A stretch of DNA of 40,861 nt from the NCBI GenBank assembly GCA_011051715.1, contig DRKP01000049.1, positions 1-40,861 on the forward strand. Direction: 5' to 3'. The stretch comes from Sedimenticola thiotaurini (GTDB lineage: Bacteria; Pseudomonadota; Gammaproteobacteria; Chromatiales; Chromatiaceae). The position numbers and the translations under genes are program-made. Below are positions 30,624-37,877 of this stretch, piece by piece. Under the pieces are notes generated by a model. It searched no databases and was not told the DNA's origin. It was given only the letters and a program-made list of their open reading frames with translations. Position 1 is the first letter of the stretch, and every line of letters begins with the position of its first letter.

Positions 30624-31373
30624 TCACACCGGGTTGTCGACATCGAGGAAGCGGTGGTCGATCCCGAACCTGTCCGCCAGGTGACGCCCGAGGGCCTGGA
30701 CCCCGCCCCGCTCGGTGGCATGGTGGCCGGCGGCGTAATAGTGAATGCCGAGTTCCCGGGCCAGGTGGGTGGTCTGTTCCGACACCTCGCCGGAAACGAA
30801 GGCATCGAGACCGGCTGCCGCCGCCTGCCCGATCATTCCCTCCGCCGCTCCGCTGCACCAGCCGATACGCCGCACCCCGGCGGGACCGCCCGGCAGGTGC
30901 AACGGGGCACGCTGCAGCGCGGTGCCGATCCGCCGGGCCAGTCGCCCGGGGGAGATCTCCTGCGCCAGTTCCGCGTGCCAGATCATGCCGTCGTCCAGCG
31001 GACTGCCGTCGGCCAGTCCCAGCAGCAGGCCGAGCTGGCGGTTGTTGCCCAGCTCCGGATGGAGATCCAGCGGCAGATGGTAGGCCAGCAGCCCCATGCG
31101 GCCCTGCATCAGGGCCCGGATCCGGTTCCCCTTGACGCCGGTGAGGGGCGCCGCCTCCCCCTTCCAGAAGAACCCGTGATGCACCAGCAGCAGGTCGGCG
31201 CCCCACTCCAGCGCCGCATCGATCAGGGCCTGGTTGGCGCTGACGCCGGTGGCCAGCCGCTGGACCGTCCCGTTGCCCGCATCCACCTGCAGTCCGTTGG
31301 GGCAGTAGTCGCTGAAGGTCTCCGCCTGCAGCAGACGGTCACACCAGGCGACCAGTTCGCTCAGCTCGATCAT
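30624..31373 (-). CDS. Nif3-like dinuclear metal-center protein (YbgI/YqfO family)
   Basis: This 249-residue protein of the Nif3/DUF34 family forms hexameric toroids with two metal ions per subunit and may be a GTP cyclohydrolase I type 2-like or metal-handling protein. Its cellular role is unsettled. The motifs CPNGLQVDAGN, LVHHGFFWKG and, near the end, GIHYYAAGHHATERGG supply metal-binding His and Glu/Asp residues. The second of two close ATGs, at 31373, has GAGGA 6-7 bases upstream. The gene is divergent from degS/algW, as in many gammaproteobacteria. Confidence 0.88.
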   Translation of the reverse strand: MIELSELVAWCDRLLQAETFSDYCPNGLQVDAGNGTVQRLATGVSANQALIDAALEWGADLLLVHHGFFWKGEAAPLTGVKGNRIRALMQGRMGLLAYHLPLDLHPELGNNRQLGLLLGLADGSPLDDGMIWHAELAQEISPGRLARRIGTALQRAPLHLPGGPAGVRRIGWCSGAAEGMIGQAAAAGLDAFVSGEVSEQTTHLARELGIHYYAAGHHATERGGVQALGRHLADRFGIDHRFLDVDNPV

Positions 31374-31440
31374 GGGCATTCCTCGGATCAGTATGGGACA
31401 ATGGCCCCGGTACAAGGCCTTCCCGCAAGCATATCAGCCG

Positions 31441-32589
31441 ATGAAACCCACCCGCACCCTCCTGTTCGCCCTGATCTCCGCCGTTGCCGGGCTGGCGGCG
31501 GCGCTGCTGGTGACGGCCCTGTTCGGCCTCGCCGGCGACGACGCCGGCCCCTCCCTGGCGGAGCGCCTGCGCCGGGGCATCGGCTCCGGTCCGGTCTCCT
31601 ATGCCGATGCGGTGGCCCGTGCCACCCCGTCGGTGGTCAACGTGTTCAGCAGCAAGGTCACCCGGGAACAGGGCCGGAGCCTGTTCGACGATCCCCTGTT
31701 CAGGCGTTTCTTCGGCGACGGCCTGGCGACGCGCCCCCGGGAGAAGCGGGAGACCGACCTCGGTTCCGGCGTCGTGATCGACGAGCGTGGCTACATCCTG
31801 ACCAACCATCATGTGATCTCGGGGGCCGAGGCGATCCGGGTGGTGCTGAGCGACGGCCGTACCCTGGAGGCCACGGTCGCCGGTACCGATCCGGACACGG
31901 ATCTGGCGGTGATCAGGACCGAGGGGGAGCGGCTGCCGGCGATCACGGTAGGGGATTCCCGACACCTCCGGGTCGGGGACGTGGTGCTCGCCATCGGCAA
32001 CCCGTTCGGGGTCGGCCAGACCGTCACCATGGGCATCGTCAGCGCCACCGGCCGCAATCAGCTGGGGATCAACACCTTCGAAAACTTCATCCAGACCGAT
32101 GCCGCCATCAACCCGGGCAACTCCGGCGGCGCCCTGATCAATGCCCATGGCGAACTGGTCGGCATCAACACCGCCATCTTCTCCAGCAACGGCGGCTCCG
32201 ACGGCATCGGCTTCGCCATCCCGATCGCCCTGGCGAAGGGGGTGATGGATCAGATCCTGCGCCAGGGTCGGGTGGTGCGCGGCTGGCTCGGCATCGCCGG
32301 CCAGGACATCACCCCCGAACTGGCCAGGGCCATCGACGCCGAGGCCGGGCGGGGGGTGCTGGTATCGGGGGTTCTGGAGGACGGCCCGGCGGACCGGGCG
32401 GGGGTGGAGCCGGGCGACATCATCACCCACGTCGACAACCAGGTGCCGGGCAGCGCCCGCGATATCCTGGAGATCATCTCCCGGCTGCCGCCTGGCAGGG
32501 CGGTGGAGTTGCGCGGCTGGCGCGACGGTGAACCCCTGCGGCTGGTGGTGGAGATCTCGGAACGCCCCAGGATCAGGGACCCTCGCTGA
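31441..32589 (+). CDS. DegS/AlgW-type periplasmic serine protease
   Basis: This 382-residue trypsin-like protease is anchored by one N-terminal transmembrane helix (LLFALISAVAGLAAALLVTA). The catalytic triad is in TNHHVI (His124), DTDLAVI (Asp154) and PGNSGG (Ser228). One PDZ domain follows (GRGVLVSGVLEDGPADRAG), so the layout is DegS/AlgW rather than two-PDZ DegP. In that role it senses misfolded outer-membrane proteins and cleaves anti-sigma RseA/MucA to release sigma-E/AlgU. The GTPase-like partner genes are not in the window. The start ATG at 31441 lies in the 67-base divergent spacer from nif3. Confidence 0.92.
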   Translation: MKPTRTLLFALISAVAGLAAALLVTALFGLAGDDAGPSLAERLRRGIGSGPVSYADAVARATPSVVNVFSSKVTREQGRSLFDDPLFRRFFGDGLATRPREKRETDLGSGVVIDERGYILTNHHVISGAEAIRVVLSDGRTLEATVAGTDPDTDLAVIRTEGERLPAITVGDSRHLRVGDVVLAIGNPFGVGQTVTMGIVSATGRNQLGINTFENFIQTDAAINPGNSGGALINAHGELVGINTAIFSSNGGSDGIGFAIPIALAKGVMDQILRQGRVVRGWLGIAGQDITPELARAIDAEAGRGVLVSGVLEDGPADRAGVEPGDIITHVDNQVPGSARDILEIISRLPPGRAVELRGWRDGEPLRLVVEISERPRIRDPR

Positions 32590-32643
32590 ATCCGTCGCCG
32601 GATACCCGGGTCCGGCTGGTGACCGGTGACGCGGGCCGGTCGG

Positions 32644-35121
32644 CTACCCCGCCCCGCCCGCGGATCCGACGCTGTGATCGGAGAGCAGCTCCAGCGGCAT
32701 CGGCCGGGCCACGCCGTATCCCTGGGCGTAGTCGACCCCCAGTTCCCGCAGCCGCTGCTCGATCTCCCGGTCCTCGACGAACTCGGCGATGGTCTGCTTC
32801 CCCATCACGTGTCCGATGTCATTGATGGAACGGACCATCGCAAGGTCGATGTCGTCCTCCATGATATCGCGCACGAAGGCGCCATCGATCTTGAGGAAGT
32901 CCACCGGCAGGTTCTTCAGGTAGGCGAAGGAGGACATGCCGCTGCCGAAGTCGTCCAGGGCAAAGCGGCAGCCACGCTGGCGCAGGGCCTCGATGAAGCG
33001 GCTGGCCTTGGCCAGGTTGGAGACCGCTGCAGTCTCGGTCACCTCGAAGCAGATGCGGTCGGCGGGCACCCCTTCCTGCCCCAGCTCGTCGAGCAGGAAG
33101 GCGAGAAAGGCATCGTCGGTGACCGAGTGGCCCGACAGGTTGATGCTGCACATGGCGAGATCCCGCAGATGTCCCGGGTTGCTGCACAGCCAGGAGAAGA
33201 CGCTGCGCACCACCCAGCGATCGATGGTCTGCATCAGACTGTAGCGCTCGGCCGCCGACAGGAACACGTCCGGCGCCACGAACTCCCCCTTGCGGTCACG
33301 CATGCGGATCAGGATCTCATAGTGGAGTCCCTCCACATCCCCCTGCAGCGGCCGCAGCTGCTGCTGGTAGAGGAAGAAGCGCTCCTCCTCGAAGGCATCG
33401 TGGATCCGGCTGACCCAGCGCATCTCGCCCTGGCGCCGCGCCAGATCCACGTCGTCCGGATGAAACAGGTGGAGCCGGTTGCGGCCCTGTTCCTTGGCCA
33501 TGTAGCAGGCGGTATCGGCGGCACTGAGCACATCCTTGACCGACTGCCTGCGGGTATGCAGCGGTACGATGCCGATACTGGCGGTGACGTTCAGCGCCCT
33601 GCCCTGCCAGTCGAAACGCAGGCTCTCCAGCCCTTCCAGGATCTGCCTCCCGGTGGACTCGGCACGCTCCAGGGTGCAGTGCTCCAGGATCATGCCGAAC
33701 TCGTCGCCGCCGAGCCTGGCCAGGGTGTCGCCGACACCGGTGTAGATATGCAGCAGACGCCCCACCTCGCACAGCAGGGCGTCGCCGGCCTCGTGGCCGC
33801 TGATGTCGTTGACCACCTTGAACTGGTCGAGATCGATGTAGAACATGGCGTGCTGCTCGCCGCCCAGGCCGATCCCCTCCAGCACCCGGGCCAGCCGCTC
33901 CTCGAACTGGGTCCGGTTGAACAGACCGGTGAGATCGTCGTGGGTCGCCTGGAAGAACAGCCGCTCCTCCAGCCGCCGGGATTCGGTCATGTCACGCAGA
34001 TAGGCGGTGAACACGACCCCCCCGTCGGGCGATGCCACCCGGGTCACCGTCAGCTCGACGGGAAACTCCTCGCCATCGATACGCATGGCGGTGGTCTCCA
34101 CCCGGGTGCCGAGGATGGTCCCCTCGCCGCTCTCCAGATAGCGGCGCAGGCCGTGGCGATGCAGCTCGCGCAGGGACGGCGGGATGATCAGCTCCGCCAG
34201 CTCCCGGCCCAGCACCTGCTGCCGCCGGTAGCCGAAGGTCCGCTCCGCCGCCGGGTTGAACTCCAGGACGCAGCCGTTCTGATCGATGGTGATGATGCTG
34301 TCCAGGGCCGCCTCCAGAATGGCGCCCTTGCGCTCCTCGCTCGAGACCAGGGCGGCCAGGGCAAGGCCCCGTTTCCGCTGCACGTCGTTGAGATGGCGGA
34401 ACACGAACAGCAGGATCAGGGTGCCGAGCAGCCACACGCCCGCCATCGAGACGCCGTCTCCCAGCAGTCTCTTTCTCTCCCGGGCCAGCAACCGTGTCAT
34501 CGGCAGGGCGACGCCGACACCGCCACCCACCTCGCCCGGCTTCCTCCCCTGGGAGGCATGGCACAGCAGACAGCCGGGCTTCACCATCAACGGCTGCATC
34601 AGCCGCAGGTAGGGTTCGCCATCGATGCGGGTGAACTCCATCACCTCCCGGGTGCCCTGCTGGAACGCCTCCAGCGCCTTGCGCTCCCAGGGATCGGGCC
34701 GGTTCTCCGGCCGCAGTGGCTGCAGACTGGTGATGCGCCCGGCGACACCGTAGAGGTCGCCGTAGTCGTGGTTCAGCTGGCGGACCATCGCCGCCGGATT
34801 GATCAGGGTGAGGCGGTTGCCCGCCGGGGTGGTGATATCCCGCTCCGGGATATGGGCCATGTTGGGATCCGGCCGGGTCCGCTCGGTGACCGGAACGTAG
34901 ATGCGGCCATGGTCGGTAGCCCAGAGCCGGAAGGCCACGTCCTTGTCATAGTGGGCCCTGGCCTGGGCGATGGCCAGCTCCCGTATGGTCTGGTCACCCC
35001 TCTGCATGTCCCAGAAAAACAGCAGCACGAACAGCAGCGTCCAGACCGTCAGTGCCAGCACCGCGTACTGCTTGATGCGTGATGGACTCTCCAGCTCCGG
35101 TTGTTGTGCCCTGGATCTCAT
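32644..35121 (-). CDS. DUF3365-PAS-GGDEF-EAL membrane sensor with CxxCH motif
   Basis: This 825-residue c-di-GMP signalling protein has a TM helix at about residues 19-37 and a periplasmic DUF3365 (Tll0287-like) sensor at about 45-215. CLLCH at 184-188 is a c-type haem motif. A second TM at 226-242 is followed by PAS at about 262-380 (AALDSIITIDQNG), GGDEF at about 385-550 and EAL at about 565-810. The GGDEF motif itself (471-475) is intact. The residues five positions upstream read GVGD, so the RxxD inhibitory site is missing. The EAL domain starts with EIL and keeps SINLSG, FEVTET, ALDDFGSG, KIDGAF, AEFVED and QGYGVARP, so phosphodiesterase activity is plausible. It probably couples a haem- or redox-linked signal to c-di-GMP turnover. 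Confidence 0.9.
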   Translation of the reverse strand: MRSRAQQPELESPSRIKQYAVLALTVWTLLFVLLFFWDMQRGDQTIRELAIAQARAHYDKDVAFRLWATDHGRIYVPVTERTRPDPNMAHIPERDITTPAGNRLTLINPAAMVRQLNHDYGDLYGVAGRITSLQPLRPENRPDPWERKALEAFQQGTREVMEFTRIDGEPYLRLMQPLMVKPGCLLCHASQGRKPGEVGGGVGVALPMTRLLARERKRLLGDGVSMAGVWLLGTLILLFVFRHLNDVQRKRGLALAALVSSEERKGAILEAALDSIITIDQNGCVLEFNPAAERTFGYRRQQVLGRELAELIIPPSLRELHRHGLRRYLESGEGTILGTRVETTAMRIDGEEFPVELTVTRVASPDGGVVFTAYLRDMTESRRLEERLFFQATHDDLTGLFNRTQFEERLARVLEGIGLGGEQHAMFYIDLDQFKVVNDISGHEAGDALLCEVGRLLHIYTGVGDTLARLGGDEFGMILEHCTLERAESTGRQILEGLESLRFDWQGRALNVTASIGIVPLHTRRQSVKDVLSAADTACYMAKEQGRNRLHLFHPDDVDLARRQGEMRWVSRIHDAFEEERFFLYQQQLRPLQGDVEGLHYEILIRMRDRKGEFVAPDVFLSAAERYSLMQTIDRWVVRSVFSWLCSNPGHLRDLAMCSINLSGHSVTDDAFLAFLLDELGQEGVPADRICFEVTETAAVSNLAKASRFIEALRQRGCRFALDDFGSGMSSFAYLKNLPVDFLKIDGAFVRDIMEDDIDLAMVRSINDIGHVMGKQTIAEFVEDREIEQRLRELGVDYAQGYGVARPMPLELLSDHSVGSAGGAG

Positions 35122-35440
35122 CAGTCGCTCTATCGACAGCCTGGTACTTGAACTGTAGCAAGTATTGCCGTGTGCACCCAGGAAACCTCCTCGTCACCTG
35201 CTGTCCGGGAGGCAGTTGTCCGGGCAGTGGAATTCCCTGGATTCCGGCCTTCGCCGGAATGACGGACGGGGTCTTGCCTGGAACTTTGCCGGAAACAGCC
35301 GAATACCCGGTCATCCCGGAGAAGGCCGGGATCCAGTGGGACGCATCTTCCGGATTCCCACCGGCCTGGGGCAGGCGAACGGGATGGAGATCAAGACCTG
35401 GGTGGTTCCCGGCGCCGCCTGCTCACGTTGCCACCATCTC
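35122..35440. other. Intergenic region with REP-like inverted repeats
   Basis: This 319-base gap lies between the GGDEF-EAL and hisC genes, both on the minus strand. It contains a pair of REP-like palindromic units, listed separately. The flanks, 35122-35236 and 35337-35440, show no coding pattern. The promoter of the GGDEF-EAL gene must lie in 35122-35236; no clear -35/-10 pair was found. Confidence 0.6.
35237..35336. repeat. Inverted pair of REP-like 27-base units (BIME/MITE-like)
   Basis: The left unit at 35237-35263 begins CTGGATTCCGGCC and ends CGGAATGAC. The right unit at 35310-35336 is its imperfect inverted copy, 24 of 27 positions matching. Each unit is itself a hairpin (ATTCCGGC...GCCGGAAT and ATCCCGG...CCGGGAT). 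A 46-base spacer separates them. The sequence is of the widely spread 'GGATTCCCGC-GCGGGAATGAC' type found between genes in many proteobacteria, mobilised by transposases acting in trans. It may also stabilise mRNA ends. Confidence 0.75.
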
Positions 35441-36547
35441 TCAGCCGGACGCCTCCCCGAGGGAACCGGCGAGGGCCGTCAGCAGGGTGTCGTTCTCCTC
35501 CGGGGTACCCACGGTCAGGCGCAAGCACTGTTCCAGCAGGGGATGGCTGCCGTGCAGGTTCTTCACCAGCACGCCCCGCTCGCGCAGCCGGCGATGGAGC
35601 TCAGACGCGTCGCCCGCCGTCACCCGGACCAGGATGAAGTTGGCCTCGCTGGGCCATGCCCTGAGCCCCGGCAGGCGGGAGAGGGCCTCGAACAGCCGCT
35701 GGCGTTCGCTCCGGATCGCTGCGGTCTGGCGCCGGAACAGCCCGCCGTGTTCCAGGGCGAAGGTGGCGCTGACCTGGGTCAGCACGTTGATGTTGTAGGG
35801 CAGCCGGGTCTTCTCGACCTGGTCCAGCCAGGCCGCCGGCCCGGCCAGCAGGCCCAGACGCAACCCCGCCAGCCCCAGCTTGGAGACGGTGCGCATCACC
35901 ACCAGGTTGGGCCATTCCCCCAGCCGCGGCAGGAAACTGGCGTCGGTGAAGGGGGCGTAGGCCTCGTCGATCACCACCAGCCCCGGGGCCGCATCCAGCA
36001 CCCGCTCCAGGGCGCCGGCATCGAACAGGTTGCCGGTGGGATTGTTGGGATAGGCCAGGAACAGAAGCGCCGGCCGCTCCCGGTCGATGGCGGCGAGCAG
36101 GGCGTCGGTATCGAGGGAGAAGTCGTCCGCCCGCAACGGCACGCCGACGTACTCCATCCCCAGGAAGACGGCGATCATGCGATACATGACGAAGCCCGGC
36201 TCCGGCGACAGGATGGTGCGTCCCGGGCCACCCACGGTCATGGCCAGCATCTGGATCAGCTCGTCGGAGCCGTTGCCCAGCACCAGGCCCATCCCATCGG
36301 GAATCGCCATCGACCGGTGCAGTGCCTCCTTCAGCGCCGGCGCCTGGGGATGGGGGTAGCGGTTCACGTCCACCTGACGCAACCGCTCCAGCCACGCCTG
36401 GCGCATCTCCGGCGGCCAGGTGTAGGGATTCTCCATCGCGTCCAGCTTGATGACCCCCTCCGCTTCCGGCACATGGTAGGCGGAGAGCGCCTGGATCTCC
36501 TCCCGCACCCACTCGGCCACCAGGTCGTCGATGTCTCTGTCCGCCAT
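35441..36547 (-). CDS. hisC: Histidinol-phosphate aminotransferase HisC
   Basis: This PLP-dependent enzyme converts imidazole-acetol phosphate to histidinol phosphate. The 368-residue fold-type I aminotransferase has IKLDAMENPYTWPPE at its start and GNGSDELIQMLAM. It also has YPNNPTGNLF (PLP/substrate Asn), VIDEAYAPF (Asp, Tyr) and RTVSKLGLAGLRLG with the Schiff-base Lys. ENPY in place of the usual ENPF/NENP is a family variant. GGAGGG precedes the ATG at 36547. It follows hisD by 28 bases on the same strand, in the order murA-hisG-hisD-hisC. Confidence 0.94.
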   Translation of the reverse strand: MADRDIDDLVAEWVREEIQALSAYHVPEAEGVIKLDAMENPYTWPPEMRQAWLERLRQVDVNRYPHPQAPALKEALHRSMAIPDGMGLVLGNGSDELIQMLAMTVGGPGRTILSPEPGFVMYRMIAVFLGMEYVGVPLRADDFSLDTDALLAAIDRERPALLFLAYPNNPTGNLFDAGALERVLDAAPGLVVIDEAYAPFTDASFLPRLGEWPNLVVMRTVSKLGLAGLRLGLLAGPAAWLDQVEKTRLPYNINVLTQVSATFALEHGGLFRRQTAAIRSERQRLFEALSRLPGLRAWPSEANFILVRVTAGDASELHRRLRERGVLVKNLHGSHPLLEQCLRLTVGTPEENDTLLTALAGSLGEASG

Positions 36548-36575
36548 CTCGGCCCTCCCCGGAACGGGTTCCCCG

Positions 36576-37877
36576 CTACTTGCGGAAGCGGTATTCCGCC
36601 GCCCGCGCATGGGCGGTGAGTCCCTCGCCCCGGGCCAGCGCTGAGGCGGTCTCTCCCAGGGTGGCCGAGCCGCTCTCCGACACCATGATCAGGCTGGAGC
36701 GCTTCTGGAAATCGTACACCCCCAGCGGCGACGAGAAACGCGCCGTGCGCGACGTCGGCAGCACGTGGTTGGGGCCGGCGCAGTAGTCGCCCAGGGGCTC
36801 ACTGGTGTAGCGACCCATGAAGATGGCACCGGCATGGCGGATTTGCGGCAGCAGCGCCTCCGGGTCGGCCACCGACAGCTCCAGGTGCTCGGGGGCGATG
36901 CGGTTGGCCACCTCGCACGCCTGCTCCAGATCGCGGCAGTGGATCAGGGCACCGCGCTCGCGCAGGGCGGTGGCGATGATGGGTTCCCGTTCCATGGTCG
37001 GCAGCAGCCGTTCGATGCTCCCGGCCACCCGTTCGATGAAGCCGGGGTCCGGGCACAACAGGATCGACTGGGCATCCTCGTCGTGCTCGGCCTGGGAGAA
37101 CAGATCCATCGCCACCCAGTCGGGGTCGGTGCCGCCGTCACAGATCACCAGGATCTCGGACGGCCCCGCGACCATGTCGATGCCCACCTGGCCGAACACC
37201 GCCCGCTTGGCGGTGGCGACGTAGATGTTGCCCGGCCCCACCACCTTGTCCACCGCCGGCACGGTGTCGGTGCCCCAGGCCAGGGCCGCCACCGCCTGGG
37301 CCCCGCCCACGGCGAACACCCGGTCCACGCCGCTGACGTGGGCCGCCGCCAGCACCAGCTCGTTGAGTTCGCCACCGGGGGTGGGCACCACCATGATCAG
37401 TTCCGGCACCCCGGCCACCTTGGCCGGGACCGCGTTCATCAGCACCGACGACGGATAGGCCGCCTTGCCGCCGGGCACATACAGCCCCACCCGGTCCAGC
37501 GGCGTCACCTGCTGGCCGAGCAGGGTGCCGTCCTCCTCCCGGTAGCTCCAGGAGTCGAGCCGCTGCCTCCCGGCATAGGCGCGGATACGGCCGGCGGCGT
37601 GCTCCAGTGCCCGCTGCCGGCCGGCGTCGATGTGCTGCCACGCCTGTGCCAGCCGCTCCCGCGGGATCTCCAGATCGGCCGCGGTCGCCGCCTCCCAGCC
37701 GTCGAAGCGGCGGGTGTATTCCAGCAGTGCCGCATCGCCGCGCCGGCGGATGTCGGCGATGATCTCGTCCACCGTGCGCTGGACGCCCTGGTCGGAGACG
37801 GACTCCCAGGCCAGCAGCTGCTCCAGCTGCTGATCGAACCCCGCATCGGTGGTGGAAAGCTGTCTGATCCCGGTCAT
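36576..37877 (-). CDS. hisD: Histidinol dehydrogenase HisD
   Basis: HisD catalyses the two-step oxidation of histidinol to histidine with NAD+ and a Zn2+ ion. The 433-residue protein has [59 protein letters not shown] (family signature) and the C-terminal zinc-site segment [19 protein letters not shown]. Length fits the family (about 430). The gene lies between hisG and hisC; 191 bases separate it from hisG, with a small hairpin in the spacer. Confidence 0.95.

Follow-up and report, generated by a model that had tools for sequence, protein, structure and literature searches.

The window, the whole stretch of 40,861 nucleotides that was analysed, carries on its minus strand an open frame (32644–35121) that encodes an 825-residue protein with the order TM-sCache_heme-TM-PAS-GGDEF-EAL. 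Two conserved genes flank it: hisC (35441–36610, minus strand) and, convergently oriented, a degS-like protease gene (31372–32589, plus strand). The stretch between hisC and the gene holds an inverted pair of a short repeat (35237–35263 and 35310–35336, together 35237–35336, given no strand), which begins 115 bp upstream of the gene. The repeat belongs to a REP-like family that matches the genome at 73 places, mostly in part only; given that spread we dropped the pair as a mark of insertion and take it as a bystander. The region 32560–35480 showed no sites resembling promoters or terminators. The frame with its coordinates and strand, the adjoining repeat pair and the domain architecture (a DUF3365 domain with CxxCH, then PAS, GGDEF and EAL) were all read correctly in the first-pass annotation.

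Pfam and hydropathy analyses define the protein in more detail, all features lying on the minus strand. Two strong hydrophobic segments, at residues about 18–38 (35008–35070) and about 219–242 (34396–34467), are predicted to span the membrane on either side of a Tll0287-like/DUF3365/sCache_heme domain (residues 47–198, 34528–34983), which matched PF11845 with 66.5 bits against a curated cut-off of 24.1. This domain holds the only CxxCH of the protein (0.003 expected from composition), a CLLCH at residues 184–188 (34558–34572) that is a putative site of covalent haem attachment. The cytoplasmic half consists of a PAS domain (residues 267–372, 34006–34323), a GGDEF domain (residues 392–549, 33475–33948) with its motif intact at 471–475, and an EAL domain (residues 573–807, 32701–33405). 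NCBIfam gave no equivalog above its cut-off for the 825-residue protein among 25 of the 41 families listed.

A phmmer search of the PDB with the sensor domain alone returned no matches, and profile searches retrieved Tll0287 (5B82) at E 0.18 with a 7-row alignment and at E 0.0027 with a 73-row alignment. We built a model of the domain from 73 related domains (mean pLDDT 94.8). Compared with solved structures by Foldseek, the model matched 5B82 first (E 7.6e-5) and the Geobacter haem chemoreceptor domain GSU0935 (3B42) third; VIA-align likewise placed 5B82 best, with a Z of 13.4 over 138 residues against 9.9 for the next row. The predicted fold is that of a Cache domain in which the CxxCH (model residues 147–151) sits in a helix (145–154) within an insertion ahead of the last strand (161–170). 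CxxCH is present in all 73 aligned sensor domains (alignment A4), as well as in 79/79 loci retrieved by an LTLxNPA-type pattern that does not itself contain CxxCH. The domain's only cysteines, C184 and C187, both belong to the motif; it lacks an axial Cys, a trait it shares with sCache_heme domains of the signalling class. A further Cys lies just before an APxI-like stretch in all 10 stand-alone relatives examined. Family, motif and predicted fold agree, and support the assignment of this region as a haem-type, probably periplasmic sensor.

Alignment A4 comprises the window protein and 72 reference domains chosen from 81 listed references. Nine loci, all with CxxCH, were removed by hand as likely redundant (L087, L102, L105, L122, L132, L138, L139, L140 and L142); its input was assembled without L071, L073, L086 and L112, whose contigs are the same as those of L033, L035, L034 and L036, and L130 was skipped because of its length. 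L038 was left out of a second alignment, A2. Output domains of the sensor-bearing loci were assigned by rough regular expressions, and by this rough motif test many of the 73 sensor domains belong to histidine kinase fusions. Those found in the GGDEF-EAL proteins (11 rows) group as one clade among the 73 (support 100/97). The same domain order also occurs in the less similar proteins L037 and L038, and L012 fuses the sensor to HAMP-GAF-PAS-GGDEF-EAL. A Phycisphaerae assembly (L106, 5563–8994) joins sCache_heme to PAS-GGDEF-HD, and a Mariprofundus assembly (L129, 5836–7137) joins it to GGDEF alone.

The family is named sCache_heme and placed in the Cache superfamily by a 2026 preprint (PMC12889525), whose accessible passages report CXXCH in 99% of members, propose that members fused to signalling modules are NO sensors, and assign redox roles to stand-alone members, which have the axial Cys. 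Slow NO release and the lack of a stable oxy complex count as further marks of the signalling class. The window protein shares its Pfam family, CxxCH and predicted fold with Tll0287 (5B82), GSU0935 (3B42) and the NO-binding protein of P. azotoformans, and shares with the family the two flanking hydrophobic segments. Its output, PAS-GGDEF-EAL, differs from those of the studied members, which in the excerpts are stand-alone, chemoreceptor or TM-HAMP proteins. PF11845 itself is found in 183/210 genomes of the host's family. The window genome encodes a second PF11845 protein (L002, 283–1974), a chemoreceptor with CVGCH; a search with this protein gave 15 weak matches (best E 0.14) with no known haem sensor by name.

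The best solved relative of the cytoplasmic half is RbdA of Pseudomonas aeruginosa (PA0861, 5XGB; E 4e-155), with MorA, FimX and DosP far behind. The EAL motif of the window protein reads EIL, and all eight residues that we take to be catalytic, on the basis of the EAL family in general and of the alignment with RbdA, are present (E602, N661, E693, D723, D724, K744, E780 and Q800). The protein thus combines the PAS-GGDEF-EAL order with a full EAL catalytic set, as in RbdA; the EIL variant with its catalytic residues had been recognized from the letters alone, as had an intact GGDEF domain lacking RxxD. The inhibitory site reads G462-V-G-D465 (residues 462–465, 33727–33738), in contrast to REGD in RbdA, which keeps RxxD. 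The 5XGB comparison covers the PAS-GGDEF-EAL region only; there the two proteins share domain order and aligned EAL residues, and they have the context of biofilm and NO in common. The available parts of PMC10294637 describe RbdA as a phosphodiesterase and report no effect of GTP on it, contrary to earlier reports cited there, while an excerpt of PMC7148300 states that deletion of RbdA raises c-di-GMP and impairs NO-induced dispersal.

To examine how the sites of this protein have been maintained, we collected orthologues at a limit of E ≤ 1e-180. They occur in 23/210 genomes and 9/61 genera of the host's family, with named loci in Sedimenticola, Thiolapillus, Chromatiaceae and unplaced gammaproteobacterial assemblies. 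Removal of five duplicates from 28 sequences left 23 distinct orthologues, a number that equals the number of genomes by chance; the incomplete L078 was left out, and frames were read to the first stop only. CxxCH is present in 23/23, and all 22 that can be read (L114 is incomplete) retain the full EAL catalytic set. The Arg of the inhibitory site, by comparison, is kept in 13/23 and missing in 10/23 including the window protein, which requires at least four changes on the tree; the loss of RxxD, noted at the outset, is therefore not peculiar to this protein. The GGDEF motif is intact in 21/23 and altered to GSDEF in L165 (G066) and GGDGF in L164 (G067), both from the genus nearest the window's and both with a full EAL site. 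Over 22 rows EAL has the highest mean pairwise identity (0.593), followed by PAS (0.558), the sensor domain (0.554) and GGDEF (0.552). EAL as a whole is thus only slightly more conserved than GGDEF, and the argument for a phosphodiesterase rests on the sites.

That argument is as follows: in the readable orthologues the EAL site is invariant while the inhibitory site and, in 2/23, the GGDEF motif change, and the nearest solved relative is RbdA; we therefore prefer to read the protein as a phosphodiesterase. Conservation of the GGDEF motif and of the GGDEF-site columns (D432, N438, D447 and D473, invariant in 23/23) counts against this reading, since it leaves room for cyclase activity. The first-pass annotation had proposed a redox, gas or haem-dependent switch between making and breaking c-di-GMP. 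Its haem-type sensor agrees with the family, motif and fold; the two-way switch fares less well. A truly bifunctional enzyme, an inhibitory-site-free cyclase in one state and a phosphodiesterase in the other, would fit the intact GGDEF and EAL motifs and the four invariant columns, and a dual-function GGDEF-EAL enzyme is reported in the title of PMC9683572. We nevertheless consider it improbable here, in view of the constant EAL site beside a varying inhibitory site and GGDEF motif and of RbdA as the closest solved relative.

A different question is which domain receives the signal. The table of PMC8846402, as excerpted, gives the PAS domain of RbdA as an O2/haem sensor, and the PAS region of the orthologues aligns across 22 rows with a mean identity of 0.56, so that the cytoplasmic PAS domain could be the input and the haem domain structural or vestigial. 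We regard this as very improbable: CxxCH is kept in 23/23 orthologues, even though the sensor domain otherwise averages 55% identity. The gene product is probably a membrane haem-sensing c-di-GMP phosphodiesterase.

The nature of the signal bears on position 107 of the sensor domain, which in alignment A4 is Met in 60/73 domains and Ile in 13/73. Ile occurs in all 11 GGDEF-EAL clade members of that alignment and in L081 and L084; among the 23 orthologues, 21 have Ile, L179 has Val, L180 has Leu and none has Met. Residue 107 lies near the expected place of the extra Cys of the stand-alone relatives. It may be a distal haem ligand that was lost in the GGDEF-EAL clade, which is a guess, and its equivalence to Met60 of GSU0935 is likewise a guess. 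The position matters for a reading in which the protein is a redox sensor, its activity set by the oxidation state of the haem iron and a change of distal ligand as proposed for GSU0582 and GSU0935. These belong to the same domain family (3B42 being the third Foldseek match), and the accessible passages of PMC8396549 interpret both as redox sensors and describe a redox-linked ligand switch; yet the Met at position 107, should it serve as the switching ligand, is absent from this protein, and we think a redox sensor unlikely, if less so than a bifunctional enzyme. In the available excerpts of PMC8396549 and PMC3460858, oxidised GSU0582 is reported to have a much higher affinity for NO than GSU0935.

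Nitric oxide (NO) is likely a metabolite of the host, because the window genome encodes an NO reductase of the cNorB type (3O0R, E 4e-221) and two cytochrome-d1-type proteins (PF02239). The one of these two that has a c domain is closest to 6RTD, which we take to be NirN. NirS itself was not identified in the window genome, where the two PF02239 matches were the only ones, and NCBIfam at 1e-20 gave no match for the NirN, NirF and NorB candidates. The genome also encodes a cbb3 oxidase and CcmF, the latter a component of the machinery for c-type haem attachment.

We propose that the protein is a haem-gated, most likely NO-gated, phosphodiesterase with its GGDEF domain as regulator, an explanation that, taken whole, we place slightly on the probable side. 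It would act as a one-component sensor of the inner membrane, whose periplasmic Cache-type domain would covalently bind one c-type haem at CLLCH, with His188 as the presumed proximal ligand. With no axial Cys, the distal position would probably be weakly held, so that a diatomic ligand could bind, most likely NO from denitrification. The resulting change would be relayed by the second transmembrane segment and then by the PAS domain to a GGDEF-EAL dimer of the RbdA kind. This dimer would mainly hydrolyse c-di-GMP, and its GGDEF domain would act chiefly as an allosteric regulator that binds GTP. In consequence the signal would most likely lower c-di-GMP and favour exit from the attached state. 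Architecture, motifs, family, predicted fold and conservation can be read from the sequence, whereas haem attachment, NO as the ligand and the direction of the response are inferred. Haem-dependent control of a c-di-GMP enzyme is, according to source excerpts, also a feature of DosP and of the CHASE4 protein PA14_53310, for which a response to b-type haem at the periplasmic domain has been reported. The same excerpts mention no CxxCH c-type attachment for either, unlike the window protein, and the sensor of DosP is a PAS domain.

The position of the gene was suspected from the outset to reflect insertion into a conserved cluster, and the comparison of gene order supports this. The whole order murA-hisG-hisD-hisC-gene-degS-nif3-petABC-sspA is found in genome G011. 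Under our E-value limits, degS and hisC lie convergently within 10 kb of each other in 43 genomes of the host's family (44 pairs), and near each other in a non-convergent arrangement in two further genomes. The gene stands between them in 4/43 (G000, G011, G066 and G067), and 11/43 carry an orthologue elsewhere. In G025 the gene is near hisC, with a chemoreceptor-like gene (L033, 2970–5297) between the two, at a contig end. The orthologues of G000, G011, G066 and G067 form one group of the tree with modest support (81/73), and a single insertion in a shared ancestor followed by vertical descent is the simplest reading. In the family the shortest gap between convergent hisC and degS is 23 bp and the longest about 6.8 kb; since gaps of 1–7 kb occur at this junction in other genomes too, it appears permissive. 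The gap of about 6.8 kb is shared by G020, G111, G112, G114 and G115, which all belong to a single genus.

Fusions of this sensor to GGDEF or EAL domains are a kind already known: PMC12889525 includes such fusions, and the legend of its Figure 2 names GGDEF and EAL among the domains associated with sCache_heme. The sCache_heme literature, in the parts available, reports no assayed member that has a GGDEF/EAL output, and a search of open-licence literature (titles and abstract starts) found no assayed c-di-GMP enzyme with a DUF3365/Tll0287/sCache_heme sensor. The NO sensors of c-di-GMP networks in the excerpted table of PMC8846402 are H-NOX (HNOB) or NosP (FIST-type) proteins, with no c-type haem domain among them. 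Tentatively, and with somewhat less confidence than in the mechanism above, we suggest an NO receptor in the periplasm, with covalently attached haem, that would directly gate a c-di-GMP phosphodiesterase within one polypeptide; loss of the Met at residue 107 in this clade may have opened the distal site for gas, and NO from periplasmic denitrification would trigger dispersal without entering the cytoplasm. The orthologue set amounts to a natural experiment, in which the EAL site is strictly kept, the inhibitory site repeatedly changed and the GGDEF motif changed in two members. If a member were proven to work in this way, it would tie a periplasmic c-type haem to c-di-GMP within one protein.
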